Shown: positions 7,117-45,928, numbered from the stretch's first letter. The stretch: DNA of 49,429 nt from Acidovorax sp. SCN 68-22 (GCA_001724785.1 MEDL01000014.1:1-49429), one strand, 5' to 3'. Notes: a model not told the origin generated them from the sequence alone. Numbers and translations: made by a program.

Positions 7117-7118
7117 CG

Positions 7119-9876: not shown

Positions 9877-9930
9877 AAAAACCGGCGCCAGCGCTTGCCA
9901 ATAAAGCGCTGGCAGCTATCTATTTGGTAG
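9877..9930 (+). repeat. Dispersed palindromic repeat, copy B
   Basis: aaaaaccggCGCCAGCGCTTgccaataAAGCGCTGGCagctatctatttggtag. Confidence 0.85.
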
Positions 9931-12205: not shown

Positions 12206-12232
12206 GGGCGGTCGGGATTGTAAGGACGCCCC

Positions 12233-27047: not shown

Positions 27048-27851
<804 letters not shown>

Positions 27852-27966
27852 GGCAGAAACAGCTGGGCAGTGGAGGGCAAGGCGCGCAAGATAGCACGCG
27901 CGCGCAGCGCAAGGCGCTGCAATTTTGGCGGTATCGGGCTATGCTGCGCTTCTGCGACGCCCCGCC

Positions 27967-28980
27967 ATGCCCGAGCCCACACCATCACGCCCTCCCACGA
28001 CCGCCCTGCCGCTGCAGCGCCGCACCTGGCTGGCCATGGCCGCTGCCGCGCTCCTGGCGGCATGCGGCAGCGGGGGCGGCGGCCCCGCCCAGACGTTCAA
28101 CGCCACCTTCCTGCAGCCCTGGAAGAGCTACGAAACGCTGCCGGTCGAAGAATGGCGCCGGCGCCTGCAACTGATGCGCGACCTCGGGTGCACCGAGATC
28201 ATCCTGCAGTGGAGCGCGCTGTACGGCGGCAGTTTTCCCTGGGTCATGCCCGAAGACCTGATCCAGCTGCTCTTTGACGAAGGGGGCCGCCACGGCATGG
28301 GTGTGCGCGTCGGCCTGCCGTACGACGAAGGCTGGTGGAACGCGCTGCGCAGCAGCCGTGCCCAGGGCCTGCCGGATTTCCTGGCGCGCACCCAGGCGCG
28401 CTGCCTGGAAACGCTGCAAACGAGCCGCTGGCCTGCACAGCCGGGCTTCCGCGGCTGGTACCTGCCCTACGAACTGGACCAGTACAACTGGGCCACGGCG
28501 GAACGCCAGGCGCTGCTGGTGCCCTGGCTGCGCAACCTGGCCGAGGCGGCGCGTGCGTCCTACCCGCACCAGCCGCTCGCCTTGTCCACGTTCTACAGCA
28601 CGCTGCCGACCTCCGGCCGCCTGGCGCAGCTGTGGGCCGCCATTCTCGAAGAGGCCGCTGTGCGTCCCATGCTGCAGGACGGGGTGGGCGTCGCTGGCCT
28701 GGGCAATTACGCCGGCCTGGAACCCCTGCGCGCGTTGCTGCACGAGCGCGGCGTGGCCTTCGACCTGATCGTGGAACTGTTCGAGCAGTTGCCACCATTG
28801 CCCAACACCAACAACGCATTTCGCGCCAAGGCGGCGTCCAGCGAGCGCGTCGCCCAGCAGATGGCCGTCGCGCGCGACTTTGGCGCCGAGCGCATCGTCG
28901 CCTTCGCCGTTGACCCGTGGCTGCTCACCAGCGAGGACGATGCAATGACCTTCCCCTACACCTGGGGCGCACAGGCCTAG
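27967..28980 (+). CDS. DUF4434-like TIM-barrel lipoprotein (putative glycoside hydrolase-like)
   Basis: Lipobox LLAAC; FLQPWKSYETLPVEEWRRRLQLMRDLGCTEIILQWSALYGG ... PGFRGWYLPYELDQYNWATAER ... STFYS: DUF4434-type pattern. Confidence 0.7.
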   Translation: MPEPTPSRPPTTALPLQRRTWLAMAAAALLAACGSGGGGPAQTFNATFLQPWKSYETLPVEEWRRRLQLMRDLGCTEIILQWSALYGGSFPWVMPEDLIQLLFDEGGRHGMGVRVGLPYDEGWWNALRSSRAQGLPDFLARTQARCLETLQTSRWPAQPGFRGWYLPYELDQYNWATAERQALLVPWLRNLAEAARASYPHQPLALSTFYSTLPTSGRLAQLWAAILEEAAVRPMLQDGVGVAGLGNYAGLEPLRALLHERGVAFDLIVELFEQLPPLPNTNNAFRAKAASSERVAQQMAVARDFGAERIVAFAVDPWLLTSEDDAMTFPYTWGAQA

Positions 28981-29014: not shown

Positions 29015-30161
29015 ATGAGCTCCACCACCGCCTTGCACGAACCTCGGGTCGCCGCTGCGGCGGCGGCATCCAGCGCAGCCACCGCCGCCCGGCACGCGGA
29101 CACCGTGGACAGCACCGGAACCCTGCCCCAGGCCGCCATCGACTCCTTGCGCGCCGAGGGCTTGCTGGGGCTGTTGGTGCCCAGGCGCTACGGCGGGCCG
29201 GGCCTGCCGCGGCCTGGGCGAAGCGTGCGGCGCCACGGGGCTGATCTACGCCATGCACCAGTCGCAGGCGGCCGTGCTGATCGGCCACGCGGGGGAGAGC
29301 CCGTGGCACGAGGCCCTGCTGGAACGCGCCGTCCGTGAGCAGTTCCTCGTCGCATCGGCCACCACGGAGGCGGCCACGGGCGGCGCCATCCGCCAGAGCG
29401 CCTGTTTCATCGACCTGCGCGAGGACGGCTTGCACCTGGACAAGTGCGGCGCCGTGATTTCCTACGCGCACGCGGCCGACCTGTTCCTGGTATCGGCGCG
29501 GCGCTCGGCCGAAGCGGCGGCTTCGGAGCAGCAGCTCGTGGCCAGCCTGCGCGAGCAGACCACGCTCAGCAGCGCCGGGCCATGCTGGAACCCTCTGGGC
29601 ATGCGCGGCGCATGCACCCAGCGCTACGACCTGCAGGCACGCTGCGCGCCCGAGCAGATCTTTCCCGGCCCGTTCGCGCACGCCATGTCCGAGACCATGC
29701 TGCCCTGCTCGCACATTCTTCTGGCGGCCGTCTGGCTCGGCATCGCCGGCTCGGCACTGTCCCGGGCACAAGCCTTCCTGCGCGCACGCAACCGCGCGGG
29801 CACACCGCGCAACCCCATCTCCAGCCTGCGCCTGGCCGAGGGTGAGGCCCTGGTGCAGCAGATGCGCGCCCTGGTGGCGGCGAACCTCTCCCTCTACGAA
29901 AGCGCAGACCGCGCAGCTTCGGCGACGGACCGCATGGTCAGCTACAACACGCTCAAGGTCAGCGCCTCGGAGCTGGTGGTTCGCGCCACCCAGACGGCGC
30001 TGCGCATCTGCGGCATCCAGGGCTACATGGAAGAAGGCGACTTCTACCTGAGCCGCCACTTGCGCGATGCGCATTCCGCCATGGTGATGGTCAACGATGA
30101 CCGCATCCTCGGGAACCTCTCCAGCGTCGTGCTCGGCATGCCGATCACGCGTGAACTCTAA
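29015..30161 (+). pseudogene. Acyl-CoA dehydrogenase-like flavoprotein, interrupted by an apparent single-nt frameshift near 29204-29210
   Basis: Frame 2 encodes ...LLVPRRYGGPGL; frame 3 resumes RGLGEACGATGLIYAMHQSQAAVLIGHAGESPWHEALL...SATTEAATGG...; C-terminus ICGIQGYMEEGDFYLSRHLRDAHSAMVMVNDDRIL. Could also be a sequencing error. Confidence 0.75.
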
Positions 30162-30184
30162 GCGCCTGCCACCCGCACCTGTCC

Positions 30185-30418
30185 ATGAATCCCAACGAGA
30201 TCGAAACCCAATTGGCCGAAATGGTCCATGCCGCCATCCTGAAGAAGGTCGAACCCGACACCCTGCTGCTCGAATCCGGCCTCCTCGATTCCGTCGCTGC
30301 GGTCGACCTGATGCTCGCCGTCGAGGCGCGTTTCGGCTGCACCGTGCCGCTGACGGAGGTCGAGGAGCATTTGCACTCGATCCGCACGCTTGCGCGCTAC
30401 GTCTCCGCACATTGCTGA
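30185..30418 (+). CDS. Acyl/peptidyl carrier protein (DltC-like)
   Basis: 77 aa with phosphopantetheine-site context LLESGLLDSVAAVDLMLAVEARFGCTVPLTEVE. Confidence 0.88.
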   Translation: MNPNEIETQLAEMVHAAILKKVEPDTLLLESGLLDSVAAVDLMLAVEARFGCTVPLTEVEEHLHSIRTLARYVSAHC

Positions 30419-30421
30419 GCC

Positions 30422-31858
30422 ATGCGCTTTGATTTCAGCGCCGGCGATTTCACGGACCTGGACACCCTCCCCAACGCCCCGGCTGCCATCGCACGGGACG
30501 GCTGCCTGAGCTGGAGCGAACTGCGCGCACACGCCAGCGCCTGGTGCGACGAGGCACGGGCCCTGGGGATCGGGCCCGATACGCCCGTGGTGATCCGTGG
30601 GCACAAGGAAGCCGCTTTTTTCGTGGCACTGACGGGCTGCCTGATGCTGCGCGCACCCTTCGTGCCGGTGGACGCGGTGTACCCCCAGCACCGGCTGCAG
30701 AGCATCCTCGACATCCTCGGCGCGCACGTGCTCTACGACGCCGCCCAAGCGGCCTTCCAGCCCCTGCACGGCGGCCCGGCGCCGGTGATGCAGGAGAAGT
30801 CGCTGTGCTACATCATGTTCACCTCGGGCACGACGGGCCAGCCCAAGGGCGTGCAGATAGGCCGTGAGAGCGTGCAGGGCCTGATCGACTGGATGCACCT
30901 GGATTTCAACCTGGGCACGCGGCCGGTCTTCCTGAACCACACGGTGTTCAGTTTCGATGTGTCGCTCTACGACGTGTTCGGTACGCTGTCCCTGGGCGGC
31001 AGCATCGTGATGCTGGACCGCGACACCGCCGCGGCGCCGCTGAAGGTGGCCGCGCTCATGCTGGAGCACCAGGTGTCCACCTGGGTGTCCACCCCCTCGT
31101 TCGCACAGCAGCAGCTTCTGAACGCCGCGTTCAACCAGAGCGCCCTGCCCGCCCTGCGCACGTTCCTGTTCTGCGGCGAGCCGCTCCCGGTGCCGCTGGC
31201 GCGCACGCTGCGCAAGCGTTTCCCGGACGTGCCCATCCTCAACACCTACGGGCCGACCGAAGCCACCGTGGCCACGACCCTGCTGCGCGTGGCGCCCGAA
31301 CACCTGGCGCAGGACGCGGTGATGCCGATTGGCCGGGCGAAGCGCGACAGCGCGGTGTACTGCGACGCGGGCGAGCTGTGCATTGCCGGCCCGCATGTCA
31401 TGCGCGGCTACCTGAACCGACCCGACCTGAACGCCTCGCGCATGTTCCTGCGCAACGGCGAACGGGGCTTTCGCACCGGCGACCTGGGCACGCAAACCCC
31501 CGACGGCATGCTCTTTTGCCATGGGCGCATGGACGACCAGATCAAGCTGCACGGTTTTCGCCTGGAACTGCTGGAGGTGGACGCCGCGCTCGCCAGCCTG
31601 CCCGGTCACCGCGCGGCCGCAGCCATCGCCTTGCGGCGCGCCGACGGGGCGGTGGCGCGCCTGGTCGGCTTCGTCGAGACGGGCCGCGCGGACGGCCTGC
31701 CCGCCGAGCTGGCCGGTTGGAAGGAAATGCTGGCCAGCCGCATCCCCCACTACATGCTGCCGTCGGAACTGCTGGCGTGCGAGCGCCTGCCGGTATCGGT
31801 GAACTACAAGGTGGACCGCGCCCAACTGCTGGCGCTGTACCAATCGCTCAACGCTTGA
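30422..31858 (+). CDS. Stand-alone amino-acid adenylation enzyme, DltA-like
   Basis: YIMFTSGTTGQPKGVQIGR; HTVFSFDVSLYDVFGTLSLGG; STPSFAQQQLLNAAFNQSALPALRTFLFCGEPLP; NTYGPTEATVA; FRTGDLG; closely resembles DltA-type D-alanine carrier ligases. Confidence 0.85.
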   Translation: MRFDFSAGDFTDLDTLPNAPAAIARDGCLSWSELRAHASAWCDEARALGIGPDTPVVIRGHKEAAFFVALTGCLMLRAPFVPVDAVYPQHRLQSILDILGAHVLYDAAQAAFQPLHGGPAPVMQEKSLCYIMFTSGTTGQPKGVQIGRESVQGLIDWMHLDFNLGTRPVFLNHTVFSFDVSLYDVFGTLSLGGSIVMLDRDTAAAPLKVAALMLEHQVSTWVSTPSFAQQQLLNAAFNQSALPALRTFLFCGEPLPVPLARTLRKRFPDVPILNTYGPTEATVATTLLRVAPEHLAQDAVMPIGRAKRDSAVYCDAGELCIAGPHVMRGYLNRPDLNASRMFLRNGERGFRTGDLGTQTPDGMLFCHGRMDDQIKLHGFRLELLEVDAALASLPGHRAAAAIALRRADGAVARLVGFVETGRADGLPAELAGWKEMLASRIPHYMLPSELLACERLPVSVNYKVDRAQLLALYQSLNA

Positions 31859-32549
31859 AAGGGTCCGTGCGGTTGGCCTGAATGACCAGCCGCGGCGCGC
31901 CGGCCTCGCCGAGCAGGAACAGGCTCAGGTGGTCGCCGGGCTGCAGGGCCGGCAGGGGCTGTGCCGGGGTGGCCGCCCCACCGCAGCGCCCGGAAACGCT
32001 CGCCCGTACGGGATTGACCGAGCGCGCGGCGGCTGTACCTTCTGCCACCGCCGAGAAGACAGGGGTTCCCGCCGGCGCCAGCAGCAGCTGGGCCTCCCGG
32101 CAGCTGCGCGCCAGGTTGTAGAAGCGCAGTTCGGCTTTCAGTGCATCCTCGTTGCCGGAGGTGTCGTCCATCGGAGTGAGTGCGAATCCGGCGCGGGTGC
32201 GCCGCAGCACCAGGGTTTGGAAGCTGTCTGGCGGCACGCGCAGCCGCGCCGCCTCCGCACCGCCCACCTGGACGGAAAACTCCTCCCCGCCACGCACGAT
32301 GGCGTAGCTGCTGGCCGGCGCCTGCCCGCCCAGCTGCTGCACCGGGCCCGTGGCCACGCGCACGGCCAGCATCACGGACTCGGGATTCACCACGCGCACA
32401 TAGGAAGAGCCGGCGGGCGGGCGCGCTGCATACAGCTGCGACAACACGCCTTCCTGGGCCATCGCCATGCCGCCAGTCCCCAGCGCCAGCACGATCAGAA
32501 CACGCTGCAACGCAGCCGAAAAACCGGGGAGCAATTGGAAGCAGGACAT
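31848..32549 (-). CDS. AlgF-like periplasmic O-acetylation accessory protein
   Basis: Signal peptide followed by LSQLYAARPPAGSSYVRVVNPESVMLAVRV, AlgF-like; start overlaps stop of MBOAT gene (ATGA). Confidence 0.6.
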   Translation of the reverse strand: MSCFQLLPGFSAALQRVLIVLALGTGGMAMAQEGVLSQLYAARPPAGSSYVRVVNPESVMLAVRVATGPVQQLGGQAPASSYAIVRGGEEFSVQVGGAEAARLRVPPDSFQTLVLRRTRAGFALTPMDDTSGNEDALKAELRFYNLARSCREAQLLLAPAGTPVFSAVAEGTAAARSVNPVRASVSGRCGGAATPAQPLPALQPGDHLSLFLLGEAGAPRLVIQANRTDPFKR

Positions 32550-34123
32550 CAGAACTGGAAATAAAGGAAACGGGTTTCGCGGTGCAGGTGAAGCAGGCAC
32601 AGGCCCAGAACGAGCAGCAGCGCAGCCAGCCATGCGGCGCTGGGGCGCCAACGCAACCAGGCAACCGGTGCCTCCTGCGTCCGCGCGAGCGCGGGGGAAA
32701 AGCGCCCAAGTATCTCGTGCGTGTTCGGCGCAAGCCAGACGATCAGCAGCAGCAGCGCCAGGTACACGGCCAGCACATGCCTACCCGCCACAAGGCGCCA
32801 GGCTTCCCATAGGCCCACCTCGTGCAGCAGCGCGCCCGGCCATTCCAGGGCTTCTACTCCGCGCCATCCGGCCATGCCCTGGAGCAATGCCACGGCATCG
32901 CCTACGCCCGCAGCGCGGAAGAATGCGAATGCCACCACCACGGCAACGAACGTGAGCAGCACGCAGGCAGCGCGCCACAGCCGCCCCATCAAGGGGTGCC
33001 GGGGCGAGAAGCGCACCCCCACCGCGACGCGCCAGCCATGGTTCACGCACAGATAGGCGCCGTGCAACAACCCATAGATGAGGAACTGCAGGCCCGCGCC
33101 GTGCCATACGCCGGCCAAAGCCATGGTGTAGAGCGTGGGCGCCGCCACCATGGCGGCGAAGCCCCCCACCCTGCGGCTCCCCGCCGCGCCCACCGGCAGG
33201 CCCCGGCGGCTGCGCCAGCGCGAGATCTGCATGGCCAACGGGTAGTACAGGTAGGCCGTGAGGTAGCGCGTGAGCGTCATGTGCCAACGCGCCCAGTAGT
33301 CGATGATGCAGTGCGCCTTGTAGGGTGAATTGAAATTCAGCGGGAAGCGGATGCCGAACATCTTGGCCAAGCCGAGCGCCATGTCGGAATAGCCGGAAAA
33401 ATCAAAATACAGCTGCATCGCGTAGGCCAGGCTGGTGCCCCATGCGGCCCAGAACTGCAGTTCGCCCGGAGCGGCAAAACCTTGGTCGGCGTAGGGCGCG
33501 ATGCTGTCGGCCAGCAGCACCTTCTTGGCCAGGCCCATGATGAACAAGGCTCCGCCGACGGACAGGTTTTCCGCACGGAAGCGGTAATTCTGCGGATCGG
33601 CGAACTGCGGCATCATTTCCTTGTGGTGCAACACCGGGCCCGCAATCAAGTGCGGGAAGAACGTGACGAACAGCGTGTGCTTGAGCAAGCTGGGGGAGGC
33701 GACCAATCCGGCCCGGCAGTCGAGCAGGTAGCCGATCTGCGTGAAGGTGAAAAAGGAAATCCCCAGCGGCAGAAGGATCCCCCCCGCATCCAGCCCCAGG
33801 CCCGGCACCCACCCCAGCCAGGCCACCAGATACTTGTAGTAGATGAGCAGCAACAGGTTGCACGCCACCCCGAACGCCGTGGCCCAGCCCTGGCGGCGCT
33901 TGTTGCCCGCCAGGCGCAGTACGTAACGGCTGACCACGTAGTTGAAGAGGATGGACGCCGCCAGCAGGACCACAAAACGCGGATTCCACCAGCCATAGAA
34001 CACGAAGGAAGCGATGCACAGCCACAGCGCCGCCCATCCCAGGCGCACCGTGCCGAGCAGGTAGTAGCCTGCCAGCGCCACCGGCAGGAACAGGAACAGG
34101 AACAGGTAGGAGTTGAACAGCAA
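32549..34123 (-). CDS. MBOAT-family O-acyltransferase (AlgI/DltB-like)
   Basis: MLFNSYLFLFLFLPVALAGYYLL; SPYKAHCIIDYWARWHMTLTRYLTAYLYYPLAM; ALAGVWHGAGLQFLIYGLLHGAYL (catalytic WHG). Confidence 0.93.
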   Translation of the reverse strand: MLFNSYLFLFLFLPVALAGYYLLGTVRLGWAALWLCIASFVFYGWWNPRFVVLLAASILFNYVVSRYVLRLAGNKRRQGWATAFGVACNLLLLIYYKYLVAWLGWVPGLGLDAGGILLPLGISFFTFTQIGYLLDCRAGLVASPSLLKHTLFVTFFPHLIAGPVLHHKEMMPQFADPQNYRFRAENLSVGGALFIMGLAKKVLLADSIAPYADQGFAAPGELQFWAAWGTSLAYAMQLYFDFSGYSDMALGLAKMFGIRFPLNFNSPYKAHCIIDYWARWHMTLTRYLTAYLYYPLAMQISRWRSRRGLPVGAAGSRRVGGFAAMVAAPTLYTMALAGVWHGAGLQFLIYGLLHGAYLCVNHGWRVAVGVRFSPRHPLMGRLWRAACVLLTFVAVVVAFAFFRAAGVGDAVALLQGMAGWRGVEALEWPGALLHEVGLWEAWRLVAGRHVLAVYLALLLLIVWLAPNTHEILGRFSPALARTQEAPVAWLRWRPSAAWLAALLLVLGLCLLHLHRETRFLYFQF

Positions 34124-34147: not shown

Positions 34148-35251
34148 TCATTGCGCGGCGGCCCAGGCACGCTGTTCATCGGCGCTGACCGGCATCGACA
34201 AGGAAAGCTCGGAGAACACCCAGACCACCACCTTCAGATGGCCGCGCCAGCGGTCCTCGCGCTCCAGCGCCGCCAGCATGGCGCCGGAAAAATACCCACC
34301 GTCCTGGCTCAGGTTCCACACTTCCCTGCCCAGGCTGCGGCCCAGACGCTCGGCCAAACCACTGCGCAAACCATTGGAGTCGCCCGCGAGAAGCACCTCG
34401 ACCGGCGCGGTATCGTCCAGGAGTCCGCCGCTGCGCTTTGCTTCAATGTGCTCGGGAATGATCCTTTCGAGCGGCGGGCGCCAGCCCTCCGGCGCCTGGC
34501 CCAGCCCCGCCAGCACGATCAGGTCGCCCATGCGCGGCTCGGCGCTCTGCCCGGTGGTGGTGGCGAATTGCTGCGCGCCCGGGCCGCCCAGCCATGCCAG
34601 CAGCGCCGGCGCCACGCTGTCGACAAACCGCTGGGCACCGGCCGGCGCCATGTGGACGTCGGTGCGGAAAAAGGCCTGCGGGAGCGACGCCAGTTGCGCG
34701 CGGACGTCGACATGGGCCACGCCGGCCGACTGCAGCGCGGCATACCACCGGTCCCAGCGTGCAAGCGCCGCAGGCGCCACTTGCAGGCCACACAACTGCC
34801 GGGCCTGCGTGCGTGACTTGTCGGGAACCGTGGCGACCAGCAACTGCACGCCGCTGCGCCGCAGGCGCTCGGACCAGTGGCGCATGAGCTGAACGCGCTG
34901 CGCGAGTGCCTCTGCGTGGCCCGCGGGTACGCGCAGTCCATCCCGATAGAACAGCCAGCCGGGGCATCCTTCCAGCACTTGCGTGCCCAGATCGCCCAGC
35001 ACCCGGTAGCGCAAGGCAGCGGCCCATCGGTCCACGCTGGCCTGCCCGGGCAGCGTCCCCAGGGCCGCGTTGACCAGCTTGCCGGCGTGCCCGTCCACCC
35101 AGGTGGCGGGCTGCCATTCGCTCGGCGCCATGCGCAGCCCCGCCAGACGCGCAACGCCCCAGGCAAAGCCCAGCGCCATGATCAGGGCGAGCACCAGAGC
35201 ACTCGCCCGGTGGCCCGCGGCGCTCTCCGTATCCGGTGCTGCCTGGTTCAA
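34148..35251 (-). CDS. AlgJ/AlgX-like SGNH-fold protein (probable TTG start overlapping upstream stop)
   Basis: GWLFYRDGLR ... TVPDKSRTQ ... FFRTDVHMAPAGAQRFVDSVAP ... EVLLAGDSNGLRSGLAERLG; TM segment near N-terminus. Confidence 0.75.
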   Translation of the reverse strand: MNQAAPDTESAAGHRASALVLALIMALGFAWGVARLAGLRMAPSEWQPATWVDGHAGKLVNAALGTLPGQASVDRWAAALRYRVLGDLGTQVLEGCPGWLFYRDGLRVPAGHAEALAQRVQLMRHWSERLRRSGVQLLVATVPDKSRTQARQLCGLQVAPAALARWDRWYAALQSAGVAHVDVRAQLASLPQAFFRTDVHMAPAGAQRFVDSVAPALLAWLGGPGAQQFATTTGQSAEPRMGDLIVLAGLGQAPEGWRPPLERIIPEHIEAKRSGGLLDDTAPVEVLLAGDSNGLRSGLAERLGRSLGREVWNLSQDGGYFSGAMLAALEREDRWRGHLKVVVWVFSELSLSMPVSADEQRAWAAAQ

Positions 35252-36234
35252 GGCAGCGCAGCCGCCAGCCTGCGGCTCCAATCCTGCTCGGAGATGAGCG
35301 ATGCGCTGTCCCACAGGCCCTTGGCATCCGGGCCCAGATGGAAGTTGGGTTCGAACAACTGCCATACGATGGCCTGCGGTGGCTCGGCACGGAACGCCGC
35401 CGATTCAAGGTATTCCATCAGCACGACCCAGAAACCCACGTCGCCCGGCTTCCAATTGACCGAGACGGGCCGGTCGAGCACATTGGACAGTTTCTGCGGG
35501 AAGCCGAAATACGGCTGCACCATGCTGTTGCCCGTAACGTGCACCGGCGCCCGCGCGCTGTCGAGCAGGCCGGCCTGCTGCGTGGCGCGCCGCACGGTGA
35601 ATACTTCCCGTCCGGCTGCGCGCCGCTGCTCGGGAGTCAGAAAGCGCTCCGCGAGGTCGCCATACCGGCGTTCCTTGGCGACGGTGCCCAGCGCCATCCC
35701 CGTGCCGGGGTTCCCCGCCAACTGCGGCACCAACTGCCGAATCAGCGCGGCCGTGGCCTCGGCCACCGCATCGGCGGCGGCCTGCGTCCAGTGCTGGTCG
35801 GTGCGGTAATAGACCGCTTCACCGCGCGCCTGCACCGTGCGCAGCAGCGCTTCGACATCAAAGCCGGGCACCTGCGCCGCCGCCAGGCGGTCGCGGATGC
35901 CGGCGTAACGCCCCAGCATTTCCGGGGTCAGCCGGTCATCGCCCACGAGCTTGTCGGCATAAAAGAGCTTCTTGCTGGGCAGTACCGGCGCCACCAGGAC
36001 GATGCCCCGCGCCGCAAGACGCCGCCGCACTTCGGCGACACGCGCCACACTGGCATCGATGGCCGGCCAATCGGGTGCGTCTGTCGTTCCCCAGCCGGGA
36101 AACAGGTAGTGCTCCTTGCCGATGACGGCCAGGATGTCCGGTTGGGCCAGGGCAGGCGTCGCCAGCCACAGCGCTGCCGGCAGCCCCAGCAGAGTCCGGC
36201 GTCGGAGCCCATGGAAAAAGCAATCGGTTTTCAT
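35248..36234 (-). CDS. AlgX/AlgJ-like SGNH-fold protein
   Basis: IGKEHYLFPGWGTTD...APVLPSKKLFYADKL...YYRTDQHWTQAAADAVAE...VHVTGNSMVQPYFGF. Confidence 0.8.
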   Translation of the reverse strand: MKTDCFFHGLRRRTLLGLPAALWLATPALAQPDILAVIGKEHYLFPGWGTTDAPDWPAIDASVARVAEVRRRLAARGIVLVAPVLPSKKLFYADKLVGDDRLTPEMLGRYAGIRDRLAAAQVPGFDVEALLRTVQARGEAVYYRTDQHWTQAAADAVAEATAALIRQLVPQLAGNPGTGMALGTVAKERRYGDLAERFLTPEQRRAAGREVFTVRRATQQAGLLDSARAPVHVTGNSMVQPYFGFPQKLSNVLDRPVSVNWKPGDVGFWVVLMEYLESAAFRAEPPQAIVWQLFEPNFHLGPDAKGLWDSASLISEQDWSRRLAAALP

Positions 36235-36271
36235 CGGTTCAGGCAATGCATACGGTCCACCCCACAGGCCT

Positions 36272-39200
36272 TCAATAGGCAAAGGTGACGCTGAGGAAAA
36301 GCCCCCTGGCGCGGTCGGTCACGCCGCCAACGCGGGCGCGGTACTGCAGGCTTGCGTCGACGTAGGAGCTTTGCGCACGGTAGCGATCCCCCGCGAGCCA
36401 GTAGCGCACATTCACGCCGACACCCGCGCCAAGCGACCAGTCGCGCCCGCTGTCGGCAAGTTCGAAGTCTCCATGGCCGGCAACGGGGGTGCCGGCGGCA
36501 CGCGCGCGGTTGGAATACCAGTCGGCCGCGAGCGACACGTGGGGGAAGAACACCAGGCGTTCGTTGTAGTCGGTCACGAAACTGCGCCCCACCCGCACTT
36601 CCCCGGCTGCAAAGCCCTGGCCGCGTCGGAGTTTTCCCTCGCTGCGCCCGAGTACCTGGCCGTTGCTGTCGCGCAGGGTGTATGCGGTGGGGGCATCCAG
36701 CCGCGTGTAGCCCAGCTGCAGATACCCTTCCATGGTGAACCAGCTGGACGTGTCGATGCGCAGCCCTGTGCCTTCGTAGAAGCCGTACAGGGCGTAGGCT
36801 TGCCACGCCCCGGCGCCGCCCTCGGTCTGGTAGGCCACGGCAGCGGCCTGCTGGTTCAAGGCGCAGCGCACCGCGGCATCGCTCGGGTTGAGGAACCCGC
36901 CGCGCGCCGCATTTCCGATGAGGAACTGCCGCTCCAGGCCGAAGGTCAGGTTGTTCTCGGCCCATGGGGTGTAGCGCACGCCGATGGCGCCCGTGGTCGT
37001 GGGAAAGCCCGAGGTCGGGCGCGAGCGTGTTTCTCCGACTTCTATGGTCCCGCCGCAGGGGTCGGGCACCGACTGCGCACCCGTCAGGTCGGAGCCGCTG
37101 TACAAGGTGTTGGAGATGCGCCCGTAGACATCGAACGTGCTGCTGCTGGAATTGAGGAAACCGGACGGCCGCCAGTACGCCTCGACGGTGCTGAACGCGG
37201 CATTTCCGGGGAGCGACACCGGCTGGCCAACCAGGCCGTTCGAGGGCGCGCGCGCTCCCCGGTAGCCGACCGACGCCGTCACACCCCACTCGCGCGAGAA
37301 GCTGGCGATGGCGCTGCGCGTATCGAAGCGCTGCTGCGCGTCGAGTGGCATGCGGCCGGCGTCGGCGTCATCGATGGCCTGGCGCAGCAACACCGCCGCA
37401 GCAGGCCTGCGACCGGCCGCAGCCATGGCGTACGCCTCGTCGAGCACATTGGTGGCGGGCGCCTGGCCGGTCTCCCGCGCTGCCACGAAATCCGCCAGCG
37501 CCAGCGCGGGCTCGCCATGGGCCAGCCGCAGGTAACCGCGCTGGCGCAAGGCATTGGCATCGGCGGGCTGCGCCGCGAGGGCCTGGTCCAGTCGGGCCAT
37601 GGCTTCCTCCTGCTCGGCTCGGGTCCCCGCCGCCAGGGCCGTCGTCAGCAGCGTCTGGTTGCCGCTGCTCTTGGGATCCTGGGCCACCGCCATGCGCGCC
37701 AGGGCAATGGCCTGCTCATAGCGCTTCTGCCCGTATGCGGCGTACGCGCGCGCGGCGGGGTTGTCGGTGCCGGGGGAATCCCAGGGCTCCATCTCGCACA
37801 CCGTTCCGTACGGCGTTTCATGGCACAGCTGCAAGGGCGCGTAGGCGCTTACCGGCAAGGCATCGCCCTGGCGCCACCAGCTCCCGGCACCCCCGGCCTG
37901 CGCACGGCGGGCGGCCGCCTGGCTGTCCCCCTCCGACAACGGCGCCAGCAGCTCCAGCGCACGGGCACGCTGCCCGCCGGCAAGCGCCAGATCGGCACCG
38001 ATCAAACGGGTATTGCGGCGCAGCGCTTCATCGATCCAGTCCTGGGCCAGCACGGCATCGATGTCCTGCTGCGCCTCGTTGGCCTGCCCCAGTTGCGCCC
38101 GCAGGTAGGCCCGCTGAAGGTGCAGCGTGGCGCTTTCGTCGTCGGCCTGGAGTGCATCGCTCGCGGCCGCCTCGGCGCCGGCGATGTCCTGCGTCGCCTG
38201 CAGGGCGCTGATGAGCAGCAAACGGTGGCTCACGACATCGGGCGCCCTGCGCACCGCTTCGCGCGCCTCGGGAACCGCATCCTGTGGGCGGCTCCCTCCC
38301 ATGGCCTCGTAGGCCTTTTGCGCGTGCTGCACGGCAATCGCCTGGCTCGCCAAGCGCATCAGCGCGCCGATGGCCTCCGGGTTGGGTGCACCCAGGGAAA
38401 TGGCCTGTGCACCTGCCGCAATCGCTTCTTCGTAGCGCTGCAAGTCTTCCAGCGCATTGAGCCACAGCAGCGCCCAGTCGCCCTGGCTCGGGTCGGTGCG
38501 CACGGCGATTTCGGCATTCGCCGCGGCCGCCTCGTGCTTGCCCGCCGCCTGCTGCTGGTAGGCCAGGGTCGCAATGGGAAAAGCCTTGCGGTATTCGGGA
38601 GTGGTGGGAACTTCGCCGGCAGCGGCCGGGCCAGCCGGCCGCAAATTGGCGACTGCCTGCTCCAGTTCGGGGCTGGTGTGGCCTTGCGCGATGGCCTGCT
38701 CGGCCGCATGCAGGGCATCGTCGAGCCGGGAGAGTTTCTGCAAGGCGTAGACCCGCAACTGGTGCAGCCGGACGGCGTCGGGACGCAGTTCCAGCGCGGC
38801 TTCCGCGCGCAGCAGGGCGGTGGCATAGTCGCCGCGGGCATAGGCCTTGAAGCCTTCGTCCGACAGCCGCCAGACACGGCCGCGCAGCGGGCGCTTACCG
38901 CTGCTGCCGGGCCGGAAATCTGGCTGCCTGGCGGGTGCGGCACGCACCCCGCGCTCGTCCGGGATCGGGGGCGCCACGGCCGGAGTCGTCGAGGGGGGCG
39001 GAGCGATCGGTTGCACCGGCGCGTCGGGCCGAGGCGCCTGCCAGATCGGCAGCGCGGGCATTTGCAGCCGCACGTAGTGCATCAACGCACGTCGGAATTC
39101 GCCGTCGACGATGGTATCGGCGGGGCCCTTGCCCCAAGACACCTCCGGTGCCCGCTCGATGGCTTGCAGGGCGCGCGCCAGCAGTTCGGGGTCCAGGCGT

Positions 39201-39514
39201 CCTGCCGCAGCCACCACCGGTGCGGGTTGCACCCCGTCGCTGCGCCGGTGGAGCGCCAGGACCCGCTCCAGCTTGAGGCCGGCCGTTGCCGCGCGGCGCG
39301 GGTCACGCACCAGGGCACTCACGTCCGCCCCGTCTTGCGGTGCCTGGGGCACGGGCATGGGGTGCGGGGAACGCGGTAACTCCATTTGCAACGACATGGT
39401 CAGGCGAAGCGGCGCATCGTCGAGGGCATTGCCCTCGGCTCCGAAAGCGGGCAGCAGCGGCCAGGCGGCCGCAAGAGCCAGAACGAGGACAGTGCGGGAA
39501 GGCATGGACTTCAT
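36272..39514 (-). CDS. nfrA: NfrA-like TPR outer-membrane protein with NfrA C-terminal domain
   Basis: Signal peptide, TPR-rich middle (DEGFKAYARGDYATALLRAEAALELRPDAVRLHQLRVYAL), C-terminal YWRPSGFLNSSSSTFDVYGRISNTLY...GAIGVRYTPWAENNLTFGLERQFLIG...SVTFAY. Confidence 0.8.
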   Translation of the reverse strand: MKSMPSRTVLVLALAAAWPLLPAFGAEGNALDDAPLRLTMSLQMELPRSPHPMPVPQAPQDGADVSALVRDPRRAATAGLKLERVLALHRRSDGVQPAPVVAAAGRLDPELLARALQAIERAPEVSWGKGPADTIVDGEFRRALMHYVRLQMPALPIWQAPRPDAPVQPIAPPPSTTPAVAPPIPDERGVRAAPARQPDFRPGSSGKRPLRGRVWRLSDEGFKAYARGDYATALLRAEAALELRPDAVRLHQLRVYALQKLSRLDDALHAAEQAIAQGHTSPELEQAVANLRPAGPAAAGEVPTTPEYRKAFPIATLAYQQQAAGKHEAAAANAEIAVRTDPSQGDWALLWLNALEDLQRYEEAIAAGAQAISLGAPNPEAIGALMRLASQAIAVQHAQKAYEAMGGSRPQDAVPEAREAVRRAPDVVSHRLLLISALQATQDIAGAEAAASDALQADDESATLHLQRAYLRAQLGQANEAQQDIDAVLAQDWIDEALRRNTRLIGADLALAGGQRARALELLAPLSEGDSQAAARRAQAGGAGSWWRQGDALPVSAYAPLQLCHETPYGTVCEMEPWDSPGTDNPAARAYAAYGQKRYEQAIALARMAVAQDPKSSGNQTLLTTALAAGTRAEQEEAMARLDQALAAQPADANALRQRGYLRLAHGEPALALADFVAARETGQAPATNVLDEAYAMAAAGRRPAAAVLLRQAIDDADAGRMPLDAQQRFDTRSAIASFSREWGVTASVGYRGARAPSNGLVGQPVSLPGNAAFSTVEAYWRPSGFLNSSSSTFDVYGRISNTLYSGSDLTGAQSVPDPCGGTIEVGETRSRPTSGFPTTTGAIGVRYTPWAENNLTFGLERQFLIGNAARGGFLNPSDAAVRCALNQQAAAVAYQTEGGAGAWQAYALYGFYEGTGLRIDTSSWFTMEGYLQLGYTRLDAPTAYTLRDSNGQVLGRSEGKLRRGQGFAAGEVRVGRSFVTDYNERLVFFPHVSLAADWYSNRARAAGTPVAGHGDFELADSGRDWSLGAGVGVNVRYWLAGDRYRAQSSYVDASLQYRARVGGVTDRARGLFLSVTFAY

Positions 39515-41211
39515 ACGGCGACGACGTCCTGCATGACGGGGCGCGGCGGCGCCAGGGGCTTGGACTCTGTCTCCTGGAAAGAAATCGCTTCCTCCAGGGT
39601 GCCCTTGTCCAGCCAGCCCTGCTCCAGCAGGATGGTCCCCAACGGGCGGCGCGAATCGCGCTGTATCGCCAACGCCTGCTCCAGGTGGCTGGCGTCTATG
39701 GCACGCCACGACAGCAGCACCTCGCCCAGACGCTGGCGGTGCCGTTCGAGCTGATCCCCCGAAGGAAAGTCGTGCATGGTCTTGTCCCAGACCAGCCGGG
39801 TACCGAACAACTTGTGCGAAAGGAACAAACGCCAGGCCCGCGCAGCGGCCATGGCATTGATGAAGTTGCCTATGACCATGCGCGGAATGGACAGCAGGCC
39901 ATGCTCCCAGCCGTACATGCTGCCGACAAAATAGGCACGCTGCACCACGCGCAACAGCAGCGCCACGGCATTGAGGCCCATGATGGTGACGAACCAGCCG
40001 CCGGGCTCGAAGGCGGACGGGTAGTACACCGTCCACCAGCCGAGCCTGTCGGCGGCGTAAAACAACAGGAAGTTGAGCATCAACACATAGCCCAGGATGG
40101 CCACGAAGGCCGTGACGAGGCCCTTGCGGTCCCGAAACAAGAGGTATTTGGTCGAGAGTGGCCCCGCCCAGCCCACCTGCTGCCAGCCCTGCAGGCCGAT
40201 GCCGATGGTCCAGCGCGCCTTCTGCCGGTAGGCCGCACGGAAGGTATCGGGGAAGTACTCCCGCACCCCCAGGGGCATCTGAATGGAGCCAATCTTTTCG
40301 CGCCCCAGCCCGAACCAGGAAATCCGACGCGTGACGTAATCGACGTCGAACTTGCCGAAGATCTGCTTCATGCCCATGCGGTTGAGGCGCGTGCCGATGT
40401 CGTAGTCCTCCGTCAGGCTTTCCACGTTGAACGGCTCGTTCGTCGTCGTCGCAGCCAGCACCTGCATCGCGCTGTGCGAAAAACAGGTACCCACCCCTGC
40501 GGAAGGGACCATGCTCGACAGGCTTTCGCGCACCACCAGGTCCTTGCTGTGCCACTCCGCGAACTCGTCCATGTAGGTGCCAGCAACGAGCTCGAACCAG
40601 CTGCGCTCCAGGGACGTCACCGGCAGCTGGATGAAGTCCATGCGCGGCAACAGGTAGTTGTAGTACTTGAGCTCCAGCGGATGCAGCACGTCCTCGCTGT
40701 CGTGCAGCACGAAGCCCGCGAAAGGTTGGCCGGCCGAGCGCTCGTGCAGGAACGCTGCCTGGACCACCCAGTTCAAGCAGTCGGCCTTGCAGGTCGGGCC
40801 GTCGTGCGGGACTTCCACGCGCACCAGCTGGCGGTAGCGCCGTCGCATGCGCTCGACCTCGGCGATGGTGCGTTCGTCGTTGCGGTAGGTGCCGACAAAG
40901 ATCGTGTAGTTGCTGTATTCCAGCACCGACACCATGTTGCTGAGCATGGGGGCGATGACGTCGTACTCCATCCACGCCGGCACCATGATCGCCATTGGCT
41001 GCTCCGCAGGTTGGCGCAACTGGTCGGCCGTCAGCCGCTTGTACTGGCGGTGTACGGTGAGTTTTCGGTACACCTGCCGAACCCAGTACCACGCGTCGAT
41101 GAACAGGTCATCGAGGCTGGAAAGCAGGATGACCACACCCACTACCGCCGTCACGATTTCCAGGACGCGGTAATAGTCGGCGAACAGGTAGGGCCAGTAC
41201 AGCGTGAACAT
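39511..41211 (-). CDS. nfrB: NfrB-like inner-membrane glycosyltransferase with C-terminal MshEN c-di-GMP-binding motif
   Basis: MAIMVPAWMEYDVIAPML...DGPTCKADCLNWVVQAAF...FVLHDSEDVLHPLELKYYNYL...SLTEDYDIGTRLNRMG...RQKARWTIGIGLQGW; tail RLGEVLLSWRAIDASHLEQALAIQ-RDSRR-PLGTILLEQGWLDKGTLEEAISFQ. Confidence 0.88.
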   Translation of the reverse strand: MFTLYWPYLFADYYRVLEIVTAVVGVVILLSSLDDLFIDAWYWVRQVYRKLTVHRQYKRLTADQLRQPAEQPMAIMVPAWMEYDVIAPMLSNMVSVLEYSNYTIFVGTYRNDERTIAEVERMRRRYRQLVRVEVPHDGPTCKADCLNWVVQAAFLHERSAGQPFAGFVLHDSEDVLHPLELKYYNYLLPRMDFIQLPVTSLERSWFELVAGTYMDEFAEWHSKDLVVRESLSSMVPSAGVGTCFSHSAMQVLAATTTNEPFNVESLTEDYDIGTRLNRMGMKQIFGKFDVDYVTRRISWFGLGREKIGSIQMPLGVREYFPDTFRAAYRQKARWTIGIGLQGWQQVGWAGPLSTKYLLFRDRKGLVTAFVAILGYVLMLNFLLFYAADRLGWWTVYYPSAFEPGGWFVTIMGLNAVALLLRVVQRAYFVGSMYGWEHGLLSIPRMVIGNFINAMAAARAWRLFLSHKLFGTRLVWDKTMHDFPSGDQLERHRQRLGEVLLSWRAIDASHLEQALAIQRDSRRPLGTILLEQGWLDKGTLEEAISFQETESKPLAPPRPVMQDVVAV

Positions 41212-41235: not shown

Positions 41236-43443
41236 TTACAGGTCCTTGCTGCGTGTGCGGCTGCGCTTGATGCGGTACGCCCAGACGAGCAGCAGCAACA
41301 GCAGCAGCAGGCCAGTGCTCACGAGCGGAACGCCCCACGAGAGGTAGCGGCGCCATTCGTAAAAGGCGCTCTCGCCAGCCCGCGGCGGCTGGCTCGCCGA
41401 GGGATTGCTGCTGTCCACCCAGCTCACCGGTCCCTGCGCACCGATCAAGGCGATATCGCCGCGGTTGAGCACGAAAGGCTTTTCCTGCGCCGGTGCGGGC
41501 CCACCGAGCGTTTGCCAGTACAGACCCTCCTGGCCATGGGCGCGCGTGACTTCGATGGAACTCAACTGCGCCAGCCCGTTGACGTCCAGCCACGGCGTTT
41601 TCTTGCCATTGATGCGCAGGTGCGCGTCCTTGACCACGACACGCGTCTCCGCGCCATCGATGGCGGTTTGCATGGCGAGGAAGGGCCGCGTGGGCGTGGT
41701 GGCGCCGTCCTGCGCGACAACCAGTTCAGCGCGCACTGGCGTCACTCCCGCCGCCACCGCCATCCGCACCACGCGCATCAGGCTGGCAGGGGCATCAGCG
41801 AGGTAGGCTGCTGGGACGATCAGTTGCGGCGCACCGGACATCAGCGGCAACAAGCCGACGAAGGTGCCATCGGGCGCCGAATCACCGCCGCGCACGTAGC
41901 TGGTGGGCAGCACGTTCACCGGGAAGGCCTGTGGCGTCTCGTTGCAATCGTTGGAATAGGGTTGGCGCTGAAAGGAAACACGCACCACGTTGCTCAGGCC
42001 GAGCGCGTAGCCGGGGACGCGCGCGTCCAGCCGCTCGGGATGGCCGTCGGCCTGCAGGCGCTTGGCCGACAACAGCACGTTGTTCCAGAACACCGATGCC
42101 ACGGGCCGCGTGGACGAAGCACCGGGTGCGGCCGCCACGTCGACCACCAGATCGGAAGGCATCCGGCCATTGACTGCCACCGCGGCCAGCGGCAGGGTGG
42201 CCGTCCAGTCACCGCGCGCCAGCACGTCGAAGTTGGCGTCGCTGCCGCCCAGGTTGGTCAGGCGCAGGCTGGCCTGGTCCAGCACTTCGGGCGAATTGGC
42301 TTCGGCCACGACGACGTCGCGCGTCGTCAGGGCGCTGCGCCAAACGTCGGCAAATGCACCGGCCGCCTTCGCGCCCGCGTCCTCGGCGACCACGATCACC
42401 GGGCGCGCCCCCAGTGTGGCGAGGCGAATGCCGTTGGCGGGCAGCGCCGTGCCACCCACGGCGGTCTGCAGGCCGCGCCAGGTGGCAAAGGCGCGCACCG
42501 CGTCGGCGTCGCCTGCCAACTGGGCTGCCAAGGCGTCAAGCGCCGCCGCCACCTGCTTGTGCAGCGCCGGGTCGGCCACGACGATGTCGCCGGTCGCCAG
42601 CGTGGAACCCAGCACCACCAGCGCGCCCACTTCGGCCTGATCCTTCAGCGCGTGCTGGGCGTTGTTCTGGCCGAGCGCAGCAAACGCCGGGACATGCGCC
42701 AGCCCGGGCGGAAGTTGCCAGCCCGTCGTGTCCACGGTATCCCCGGGCGCCGGGAAGGACCGGATCTGCACCCGGCGGTTGGCCTGCTCCAGCGCCACGC
42801 CCAGGCGCCAGGCCGTGTCGTACGCCGTCTTGTTCAGGCTGCGCGACGCCACGAGCAGCGTCGGGCGTGCGGGAAGAGTGAGCCAGGCATCGGCCAGGCT
42901 GGTCAGCGCGGCACTGCTGAAACGGTAGTTGAAACGCGTGTCGTTGGACACCGCCAGGACGTTGCCGGTGGAGCGCTCCACATCGCAGATGCGCTGCCCG
43001 ACATTGTTCAGCCAGTCCACCCGGAAGCGCAGGAAGCCATTGGCGGGCTTGGTGACATCCACCTTGAGTACCTGGCTGGGGTCTCCCTCCGAGGTGTCGA
43101 TGCGGCGCGAATGCACCGGGCGGCCGTTGACGAACAACAGCATGGAGGTGCGGCCCTCCTCGGCCTTGTAGTAGCGCCCGCGGAAATCGATGCTGGCGTC
43201 TGCCAGGCGCAGGGTGCGTGGAACCGGAAGGTAGAACTCCTGCCGGCTGTCGTAGCCGTTGAGCAGCACGTCTTCCCCGAATCCCAGGTCCGACAGGGCG
43301 AAACTGCGGCTGACCCAGGTCTCGCCGTGCAGGCGCGCCAGCGCATCCCCGGCGGGGCTGGCCAAGGCCAGCAGCGGCGTGCTCAGGCAGGCAAGAACAA
43401 GCAGGCGCGCGCCGCGCCGAGAGAGGGAAACGCATGTGTTCAT
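41236..43443 (-). CDS. BcsB-like periplasmic polysaccharide-synthase partner
   Basis: Signal peptide; jelly-roll style FRGRYYKAEEGRTSMLLFVNGRPVHSRRIDT; C-terminal TM anchor LSWGVPLVSTGLLLLLLLLVWAYRIKRSRTR. Confidence 0.8.
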   Translation of the reverse strand: MNTCVSLSRRGARLLVLACLSTPLLALASPAGDALARLHGETWVSRSFALSDLGFGEDVLLNGYDSRQEFYLPVPRTLRLADASIDFRGRYYKAEEGRTSMLLFVNGRPVHSRRIDTSEGDPSQVLKVDVTKPANGFLRFRVDWLNNVGQRICDVERSTGNVLAVSNDTRFNYRFSSAALTSLADAWLTLPARPTLLVASRSLNKTAYDTAWRLGVALEQANRRVQIRSFPAPGDTVDTTGWQLPPGLAHVPAFAALGQNNAQHALKDQAEVGALVVLGSTLATGDIVVADPALHKQVAAALDALAAQLAGDADAVRAFATWRGLQTAVGGTALPANGIRLATLGARPVIVVAEDAGAKAAGAFADVWRSALTTRDVVVAEANSPEVLDQASLRLTNLGGSDANFDVLARGDWTATLPLAAVAVNGRMPSDLVVDVAAAPGASSTRPVASVFWNNVLLSAKRLQADGHPERLDARVPGYALGLSNVVRVSFQRQPYSNDCNETPQAFPVNVLPTSYVRGGDSAPDGTFVGLLPLMSGAPQLIVPAAYLADAPASLMRVVRMAVAAGVTPVRAELVVAQDGATTPTRPFLAMQTAIDGAETRVVVKDAHLRINGKKTPWLDVNGLAQLSSIEVTRAHGQEGLYWQTLGGPAPAQEKPFVLNRGDIALIGAQGPVSWVDSSNPSASQPPRAGESAFYEWRRYLSWGVPLVSTGLLLLLLLLVWAYRIKRSRTRSKDL

Positions 43444-44636
43444 AGCTGGGACTCCGAGAAAATTGCGTTCAGAGGGGGATGGGGCTCGGGCGCGTGGCGC
43501 AGCTCCGGCCGGAATTCAGCGACGCTGCGGCCGCACAGGGCGTCCACAATGCGCTGGCACGCATGCCCGTCCCCGTAGGGGTTGGCCTTGCGGCAGAACT
43601 GTGCGTACAGCGCGGCGTCGTCCAGAAGGCGGTTGGCTTCGGTGGCGATGCGCTCGCGCGAGGTGCCGACCAGGCGTACCGTCCCCGCTGCCACGGCTTC
43701 AGGCCGCTCGGTCACGTCGCGCAGTACCAGCACGGGCTTGCCGAGTGCGGGCGCTTCTTCCTGCACACCGCCGGAATCGGTCAGGATGAGGTGCGCGCGG
43801 CGCATCAGCCAGAGGAAATCGAGGTAATCGAGCGGCTCGATCAGATGGATGTGCGGGTGCCCGGCCAGCGTCTTCTGTACCACGCCCTGCACGTTGGGAT
43901 TCAAGTGCACCGGATAGACGATTTGCACGTCGTCCCGCCCCGCAAGATCCCGCAACGCGGCGCAGATATTGCGCAGCCCCTCGCCGAAGTTCTCGCGCCG
44001 GTGGCCGGTGACGAGCACGAGCCTGCGCCGCCCATCCAGCCAGTGGTAGCGCTGGGCCAGGGCCTGCTGGCGCGCCGGGTCGGCGTCCAGGGTGGCAAGC
44101 GCCGCGTTGAGCGCGTCGATGACGGTATTGCCGGTCACCCAGATGTGGCCGGAGACGCCCTCCTGCAGCGCCGCCGCACGCGCCGAGGGGGTGGGTGCGA
44201 AGAGCCACGTGCTGACCGAATCGACCAACCTGCGGTTCATTTCTTCTGGGAAAGGCGAATGAATGTTGCCGCTGCGCAACCCCGCTTCGACGTGGCCGAC
44301 CGGTATGCGTCTATGGAACGCGGCCATGGCGGCGGCGGCGGCCGTGCTGGTGTCGCCATGCACCAGCACGCAATCGGGCCGCGCGGCGTCCAGCACCCCA
44401 TCGACGGCCGCCAGGAGGCGGGCGAACAAACCATTGAGCGACTGCCCCGCCAGCATCACGTCGAGTTCGTGGTCGGCCTGTAGCCCAAACAGGCCCATGA
44501 CCTGGGCGAGCATTTCGCGGTGTTGCCCCGTCACGCATACGCTGCTGTGCAGCTGCGGCTCACCCCGCAGGGCGAGTACCAGGGGGGCCATCTTGATGGC
44601 TTCGGGACGGGTACCGAAAATCGACAGGACGCGCAT
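43440..44636 (-). CDS. wecB: UDP-N-acetylglucosamine 2-epimerase (non-hydrolysing)
   Basis: MRVLSIFGTRPEAIKMAPLVLAL; VTGQHREML; VHGDTSTAAAAAMAAF; HVEAGLRSG; TGHRRENFG; LTDSGGVQEEAPALGKPVLVLRDVTERPEA. Confidence 0.97.
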   Translation of the reverse strand: MRVLSIFGTRPEAIKMAPLVLALRGEPQLHSSVCVTGQHREMLAQVMGLFGLQADHELDVMLAGQSLNGLFARLLAAVDGVLDAARPDCVLVHGDTSTAAAAAMAAFHRRIPVGHVEAGLRSGNIHSPFPEEMNRRLVDSVSTWLFAPTPSARAAALQEGVSGHIWVTGNTVIDALNAALATLDADPARQQALAQRYHWLDGRRRLVLVTGHRRENFGEGLRNICAALRDLAGRDDVQIVYPVHLNPNVQGVVQKTLAGHPHIHLIEPLDYLDFLWLMRRAHLILTDSGGVQEEAPALGKPVLVLRDVTERPEAVAAGTVRLVGTSRERIATEANRLLDDAALYAQFCRKANPYGDGHACQRIVDALCGRSVAEFRPELRHAPEPHPPLNAIFSESQL

Positions 44637-44705
44637 TCGAGGAATCAGCCGCTGGGCATTGCGGTGTTCCTCTAGAGAACCAAGCGCAGGCCCTACCACT
44701 TGAAT

Positions 44706-44834
44706 GGGGCTTGCCGGGAAGCCCCGTGGGCGGGACGATCTTTGTCGCCTGACCCTCGAACACACATCTTAACAACTGTGTCTGATGTCGCGCAACATTA
44801 TTGCAAATTGTTTGCATCCCGCAACACTTGCGGG
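44706..44834 (-). promoter_or_regulatory. Candidate promoter/operator/leader of the wecB-bcsB-nfrB-nfrA-alg operon
   Basis: Two adjacent inverted repeats TGCAAA-TTG-TTTGCA (44802-44816) and CCCGCAA-CAC-TTGCGGG (44818-44834); possible minus-strand TTGCGC-N18-TAAGAT promoter (-10 at 44766-44771); leader hairpin GGGGCTT-gccggg-AAGCCCC (44706-44725). Confidence 0.45.
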
Positions 44835-45090: not shown

Positions 45091-45831
45091 TCAGCCGTTC
45101 AACGCGTCCGCGCGCTCCTGCGCGGCGGCAAAGTCCAGGTCGCCGCTGTAGATGGCTCGGCCGCAGATCACGCCTTCAATGCCTTCGCTTTCCACCGCGC
45201 AGAGCTGCTCGATGTCGCGCATGCTGCCGAGGCCCCCCGAGGCAATGACGGGGATGGTGAGCGCCTGGGCGAGCTTGACGGTGGCGTCGATGTTGATGCC
45301 CGAGAGCATGCCGTCGCGGCCGATGTCGGTGTAGACGATGGATTCGACACCCCAGTCCTCGAACTTCCTGGCCAGGTCCACCACCTCGTGGCCGGTGAGC
45401 TTGCTCCAGCCGTCGGTGGCGACCTTGCCGTCCTTGGCGTCCAGGCCAACGATGATGTGCCCGCCGAAGGCCGAGCAGGCGTCCTTCAGGAAGCCGGGGT
45501 TCTTCACGGCGGCGGTGCCGATGATGACGTAGCGCAGGCCGCCATCGATGTATTTCTCGATCGTGTCGAGGTCGCGGATGCCGCCGCCCAGCTGGACGGG
45601 GATGTCCTCGCCCACTTCCTTGAGGATGGATTTGATGGCCTGGTAGTTCTTGGGTTTGCCGGCAAAAGCGCCGTTCAGATCCACCAGGTGCAGGCGCCGC
45701 GCCCCCGCATCAATCCAGCGCCGCGCCATGGCCGCCGGGTCTTCGCCAAAGGTGGTCGATTGGTCCATGTCGCCCTGTTTCAGGCGAACGCAATGGCCGT
45801 CTTTGAGGTCGATGGCGGGAATGAGCAGCAT
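45091..45831 (-). CDS. hisA: 1-(5-phosphoribosyl)-5-[(5-phosphoribosylamino)methylideneamino]imidazole-4-carboxamide isomerase
   Basis: [28 protein letters not shown]...[14 protein letters not shown]...[20 protein letters not shown]. Confidence 0.98.
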
Positions 45832-45928
45832 GGCAGGTGGTGATTTGGAGGGGCCGGAAAGACAGGCCGGGACAGGCACGAAGTGCTGCGATCCCGGCCA
45901 GGGGCCGGAGGCAGCGGGCGAAATCAGG

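Follow-up and report, generated by a model that had tools for sequence, protein, structure and literature searches.

An ACAD-fold flavoenzyme, a DltC-like carrier and a DltA-like ligase in an Nfr/NGR-type exopolysaccharide cluster of Acidovorax suggest polymer decoration with a carrier-borne amino acid

The window analysed here is a 49,429-nt stretch of DNA from Acidovorax sp. SCN 68-22, contig C14 of a 2.94-Mb, 78%-complete MAG. At 29015-31858 on its + strand it carries a genuine trio of genes encoding, in order, an ACAD-fold flavoenzyme, a DltC-like carrier and a DltA-like ligase, and its gene content places the trio within an Nfr/NGR exopolysaccharide cluster. We propose, with a probability of about 0.6 for the route as a whole, that the product of this cluster is an exopolysaccharide of the Nfr/NGR type to which an amino acid is attached from a carrier. 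The ligase would activate a small amino acid (D-alanine is the likeliest) and load it on to the carrier; the flavoenzyme, where intact, would oxidise the carrier-bound aminoacyl group by N- or alpha-oxygenation or by dehydrogenation; an AlgI-type MBOAT would receive the group from the carrier on the tyrosine of its own FLYFQF tail; and AlgX-like SGNH proteins together with AlgF would pass it to the polymer in the periplasm. The genes present, their conservation and linkage, the likeness of the pockets, the lack of the Glu residues and the frameshift are observed, whereas the substrate, the reaction, the transfer to the MBOAT and the identity of the polymer are inferred. The genes concerned are as follows.

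27925-28980, + strand: YbcH-type DUF4434 periplasmic protein gene, start may be internal (Pfam DUF4434, 166 bits; PRK09936, 80 bits, below cut-off)
29015-30161, + strand: ACAD-fold flavoenzyme gene, frameshifted (Pfam Acyl-CoA_dh_N and Acyl-CoA_dh_1)
30185-30418, + strand: DltC-like carrier protein, 77 aa, phosphopantetheine Ser in GLLDS (Pfam PP-binding)
30422-31858, + strand: DltA-like amino acid:carrier-protein ligase, 478 aa, pocket DVYSLCTVA (Pfam AMP-binding; PRK04813/TIGR01734; specificity region)
31848-32651, - strand: AlgF-like gene, start may be internal, convergent with the ligase gene (Pfam AlgF, 51 bits)
32549-34123, - strand: AlgI-type MBOAT, 524 aa, with the WHG catalytic His region and C-terminal FLYFQF (Pfam MBOAT; DltB model, 173 bits; alignment with DltB in the PDB)
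34148-35365, - strand: AlgX/AlgJ-like SGNH acyltransferase 2, start probably internal (Pfam ALGX, 200 bits)
35248-36282, - strand: AlgX/AlgJ-like SGNH acyltransferase 1 (Pfam ALGX, 199 bits)
36272-39622, - strand: NfrA outer-membrane export protein, start uncertain (Pfam NfrA_C, 72 bits)
39511-41211, - strand: NfrB processive glycosyltransferase with an MshE-type c-di-GMP motif (PRK15489, 922 bits, and NF053729, both over cut-off)
41236-43443, - strand: BcsB-like protein (Pfam BcsB, 23 bits, weak; conserved in relatives)
43440-44765, - strand: WecB-type UDP-GlcNAc 2-epimerase (Pfam Epimerase_2, 393 bits)

The first-pass annotation had described the trio as a dehydrogenase-like gene, a 77-aa carrier and a 478-aa ligase. 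Both of the latter and the gaps of 23 nt (flavoenzyme gene to carrier) and 3 nt (carrier to ligase) stood, whereas the first gene is not one open gene; both its frameshift and the Nfr/NGR setting had been overlooked. The ORF starting at 29015 loses frame near 29205, leaving the N-terminal part of the flavoenzyme at 29015-~29210, and the remainder lies in another frame, open at 29253-30161. DNA alignment with three relatives revealed a single 26-nt deletion at about 29202-29213, and the flavoenzyme is intact in relatives (388-394 aa). The deletion may be genuine or an assembly error of the incomplete MAG. If it is real, this strain would attach an unoxidised aminoacyl group, and thus the aminoacyl part of our proposal alone may apply to it. 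The broken gene in the window counts against the proposal.

Searching 85,000 species genomes with the flavoenzyme as sole query gave 80 loci. All 16 close loci, defined by 72% identity or more in the scan table and found in Xylophilus, Paracidovorax, Giesbergeria, Pseudacidovorax, Simplicispira and Acidovorax, carried a DUF4434-ACAD-ACP-LIG block convergent with AlgF-MBOAT-AlgX-AlgX-NfrA-NfrB, complete within the limits of each locus (L032 stops after the ligase and L043 after NfrA). Since this gene order recurs in every close relative, the arrangement is not due to chance, and a reading of the trio as a chance grouping or a broken cluster was ruled out. The ACAD-bearing nfr loci nevertheless all come from one bacterial group, so the shared order partly reflects common descent, which weakens the case for the proposed route.

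The surroundings of the trio include NfrB with its MshE-type motif, NfrA, a YbcH-type protein (below the PRK09936 equivalog cut-off) and WecB. As described in the NGR-cluster passages of two papers, E. coli nfrBA-ybcH and wecB make NGR, which is the receptor of phage N4 and is thought to contain ManNAc, and acetyltransferase genes were noted in Simplicispira suum and Achromobacter clusters of this kind (PMC8669472, PMC8669469). The same passages make no mention of a ligase, carrier or flavoenzyme, and our literature search found no description of the exact trio in exopolysaccharide clusters. The window shares NfrB, NfrA, DUF4434 (YbcH) and WecB with the E. coli system, but has a BcsB-like protein and the acylation genes in addition. 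The 3' ends of the ligase and AlgF genes overlap by 11 nt. The nfr cluster as a whole lies between hisF and hisA/hisH (27048-27851 and 45091-46597). hisF also flanks it in several relatives (L021/L032, L031, L035, L039, L042 and L095), which suggests that the his operon is a conserved position or insertion site. At the contig end (48394-49060), a PIN-domain protein and, upstream of it, a DUF6364-like small protein are likely to form a toxin-antitoxin pair.

We analysed the carrier and the ligase against the Dlt pathway. The carrier scored over the cut-off for PP-binding and reached 38 bits with TIGR01688 dltC, under the cut-off of 52; GLLDSVAAV, with the phosphopantetheine Ser expected of a DltC-like carrier, was invariant in the window and three relatives. 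The ligase scored 350 and 340 bits with the DltA models PRK04813 and TIGR01734, both under cut-off, and contained both FSFDVSLYD and FLFCGEPLP, the motifs pointed out in the first-pass annotation. The best PDB matches of its specificity region were all DltA structures (125 bits, against 70 bits for an L-prolyl ligase). Pocket codes were then read at GrsA positions 235-331, with the positions aligned by sequence. The code was DVYS(L/V)CTVA in 17/17 trio ligases, compared with DLMSxCTVA in DltA, DL(Y/F)SLCTVA in the dlt-like operons of the sister family and DLIS(I/V)IS(I/V)A in the more distant class-level relatives L118-L122. The trio ligase, which falls below the cut-offs of the DltA models, thus equals DltA at seven of nine code positions; Asp and Cys are kept, and Leu and Met are replaced by Val and Tyr respectively. 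The Asp is the amine-binding residue of DltA, where the D-methyl group is in contact with Leu198 and Cys269; the similar site of AlmE accepts Gly (PMC11253843). A pocket nearly that of DltA and of the dlt-like operons makes D-Ala the likeliest substrate, in line with the earlier claims of a DltA-like ligase with the D-Ala-type Cys and of a small amino acid as its substrate. The two changed contact positions argue against a simple equation with DltA, and the substrate may instead be Gly, D-Ser or some other small amino acid. A fatty-acyl ligase was rejected, since the residue binding the alpha-amino group, Asp, is retained and DltA is the best match of the specificity region.

Six nfr clusters without a flavoenzyme (L110, L111 and L131-L134) showed a different ligase code, DFFS(V/M)GSCS. 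That the pocket differs where the flavoenzyme is absent suggests that ligase and flavoenzyme act on the same acyl group, a correlation that amounts to one contrast, as the tree resolves two ligase clades. The polymer of these six clusters is probably related, but decorated with another amino acid.

Beyond the close loci, a SerRS-like ligase (PRK07080 type) was encoded directly downstream of the flavoenzyme on the same strand in 62 of the 64 remaining loci; two members scored over the NCBIfam cut-off for PRK07080 and the others were assigned by similarity. In a further locus, L084 from Streptomyces, a stand-alone A domain begins where the flavoenzyme gene ends. Thus an amino-acid:carrier ligase lies beside the flavoenzyme in 79/80 loci (16 DltA-like, 62 SerRS-like and one other A domain), the DltA-like and SerRS-like ligases having unrelated folds. 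SerRS-like ligases load Gly or Ala on to carriers (PMC5370406), and the recurrent ligase neighbour suggests that the substrate of the flavoenzyme is probably carrier-bound Ala or Gly. A view of this second group as unrelated ACADs was dropped because of the linkage to amino-acid:carrier ligases. The operon of ACAD-like flavoenzyme and SerRS-like ligase is widespread (L022, L023, L025-L028 and L045-L109 except L084, L095 and L103), occurring in Methylobacterium, Paraburkholderia, Caballeronia, Azospirillum and others, mostly together with a papain-like DUF1839 protein and a GH2-like protein; its flavoenzyme logic is the same, and its ligase and transferase differ. At L084 (Streptomyces flavidovirens, 4047-12558), the flavoenzyme and the A domain, whose code is DLASMCNMF, are accompanied by a KAS III-like gene, a 2OG-Fe dioxygenase and an A-T didomain protein; the locus is possibly a small-molecule cluster with the same chemistry, and a check for a known product recognised none.

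The flavoenzyme was analysed further by structure prediction. An AF2 model of the Xylophilus ortholog, made with a 74-sequence alignment (a 3-sequence model with pLDDT 44 was discarded), had a pLDDT of 92 and, in agreement with the Pfam domains, the ACAD fold. Foldseek gave query TM-scores of 0.75-0.83 to ACADs and class-D monooxygenases, the best matches being ACADs mixed with DszC, TdsC, KijD3 and ORF36, and KijD3 having the top score (0.83) among the matches listed. In profile searches, two ACADs were followed by the nitrososynthases KijD3, DnmZ and ORF36 (E 1e-27 to 1e-25), with a prolyl-ACP dehydrogenase far lower (1.7e-17). A WDxxGMR motif and a Ser near the expected flavin site were common to the flavoenzyme and KijD3/DnmZ and not seen in the two ACADs shown. 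The 376- and 254-type positions, which from alignments and the known features of the family we take to be those of the catalytic Glu, are Val/Ile and Ser/Ala/Thr in 74/74 relatives. His90 and His242 (L030 numbering) are invariant and are candidate catalytic residues; His90 lies in the segment adjoining an Asp aligned by the best-matching ACAD (7p98). In the tree, the trio flavoenzymes formed one clade (100/100) inside the subfamily, apart from the ACAD and N-oxygenase references. With both catalytic Glu missing and N-oxygenases among the best structural relatives, a role as dehydrogenase is unproven, and we lean slightly towards oxygenation.

Within the proposed route, the flavoenzyme could therefore act in either of two ways, each considered on condition that the route holds. 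That it is a class-D-like flavin monooxygenase, hydroxylating the carrier-bound amino acid at N or at the alpha position, has in our estimate a little less than an even chance. The loss of the ACAD Glu base, the rank of the nitrososynthases directly after the two ACADs, the shared flavin-site features and the TM-score of KijD3 among the matches listed are all consistent with it, as is the prediction of Iyer et al. for the sister system that the amino acid is modified, probably by monooxygenation, and then ligated to a surface sugar (PMC2922099). However, no flavin reductase was noticed in the cluster, and the tree does not group the subfamily with N-oxygenases rather than ACADs. A true dehydrogenase, which would give a dehydroalanyl- or imino-acyl-carrier (-2 Da) that may hydrolyse to a keto-acyl form, is a weaker but serious possibility: true ACADs are among the best sequence and fold neighbours, the invariant His90 is placed near the aligned Asp of 7p98, and AzsF, which is ACAD-like, oxidises a glycine-like thioester, hydrazinoacetyl, on its carrier (PMC10445470). 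This variant is at odds with the replacement of both canonical Glu residues in all 74 relatives, and a Gly loaded by a partner ligase offers no beta carbon for alpha,beta-desaturation. More widely, we tentatively suggest, at rather below even odds, that Glu-less ACAD-fold flavoenzymes oxidise Ala or Gly thioesters on stand-alone carriers, and that an AlgI-type MBOAT then attaches the oxidised group, such as N-hydroxyalanyl or dehydroalanyl, to an NGR-type polysaccharide as an ester. We know of no bacterial polymer carrying an oxidised aminoacyl decoration.

The hand-over to the MBOAT is the step at which the trio and the polymer machinery would meet, and an alternative is that the MBOAT, AlgX and AlgF proteins merely acetylate the polymer, with the trio making something else, e.g. 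a small molecule or a lipid modification. The trio lies on the opposite strand to the MBOAT in the ACAD-bearing clusters, and MBOATs of the AlgI/PatA class are held to use acyl-CoA (normally acetyl-CoA in the AlgI type) and to need no carrier (PMC12148441); both points speak for such a separation and against the proposed route. In the six nfr clusters without a flavoenzyme, however, MBOAT, ACP, LIG and AlgF follow one another on one strand, whereas the nfr loci without MBOAT/AlgX (L112, L113, L114, L116 and L117) had neither carrier nor ligase (5/5). Carrier and ligase were thus present in every nfr cluster seen with an MBOAT and in none without. No ACP/LIG pair was found beside eight ordinary AlgI homologues (about 46% identity), and the dlt-like operons in which related ligases lie elsewhere also encode ACP, a DltB-like MBOAT and, in most cases, a DltD-like protein. 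FLYFQF forms the C-terminus of the nfr MBOATs, and the FxYxxF tail is an acyl-group shuttle in PatA (PMC12148441); the combination of such a shuttle-tail MBOAT with a carrier and a ligase is unusual. Domain scans of the cluster genes found no thioesterase, condensation or ketosynthase domain, as the first-pass annotation had already noted, leaving the cluster without a release or condensation enzyme for a small molecule. We therefore regard separate roles as unlikely, and the earlier suggestion of hand-over to the MBOAT for polysaccharide decoration is supported by the linkage of carrier and ligase to the MBOAT and by the tail. Formation of a pyrrole-2-carboxyl-carrier from L-proline by PltF/PltL/PltE logic, the other option raised in that annotation, uses the same three gene kinds, and L-prolyl ligases are among the ligase matches, but it is very improbable given the DltA-like rather than L-Pro-type pocket and a flavoenzyme that reaches about 50-55 bits with the prolyl-PCP dehydrogenase model (cut-off 650) and is without the usual Glu.

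Taken together, the cluster resembles a hybrid of known acylation systems. With Dlt (DltA-DltC-DltB-DltX-DltD, teichoic acid D-alanylation) and Bordetella dra it shares a DltC-like carrier and an MBOAT with an SGNH partner, beside a DltA-like ligase with a near-identical pocket. Unlike Dlt, it has a full-length AlgI-type MBOAT with its own shuttle tail in place of DltB plus DltX, two AlgX-family SGNH proteins and AlgF in place of DltD, an extra flavoenzyme and the setting of an nfr polymer cluster. The dra locus adds D-Ala to an outer-membrane component (PMC4448142) and probably represents the dlt-like operon type of the related ligases. The FxYxxF tail of the MBOAT, the AlgX-like SGNH proteins and AlgF are as in alginate O-acetylation by AlgI/AlgJ/AlgF/AlgX, but here a ligase and carrier accompany the MBOAT, whereas that class is described as lacking them (PMC12148441). 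AlmE/AlmF/AlmG of Vibrio cholerae likewise use a DltA-like small-amino-acid ligase and a carrier for a Gram-negative surface modification (PMC11253843, PMC3783018), although their target is lipid A, their transferase differs and they have neither an MBOAT/SGNH pair nor a flavoenzyme. The SerRS-like ligase loci (PRK07080, ACAD, DUF1839 and GH2-like) have the same flavoenzyme subfamily beside an amino-acid:carrier ligase and are also predicted to modify surface sugars (PMC2922099), but with an unrelated ligase fold and DUF1839 instead of MBOAT/SGNH; neither the PRK07080 ligase nor DUF1839 occurs in the trio clusters. Tri22/AzsF of triacsin and azaserine formation, likened here by activity and not by sequence, are ACAD-like enzymes oxidising a glycine-like carrier thioester, but in a different pathway and on a different substrate (hydrazinoacetyl).

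The finding joins two designs of polymer acylation that the literature separates, the carrier-fed Dlt type and the acyl-CoA-fed AlgI/PatA type with a fused shuttle tail, and it does so in the machinery of an NGR-type glycan. It also gives a concrete candidate substrate for a flavoenzyme subfamily that almost always neighbours amino-acid:carrier ligases; to our knowledge, no pathway has been established for the SerRS-like ligases since their description in 2010. The position of the trio inside a conserved surface-polymer cluster suggests that in some bacteria an unusual amino-acid group, and not acetate, may be attached to the polymer. If charged or reactive, such an aminoacyl group would alter surface charge, antimicrobial peptide resistance and phage adsorption.
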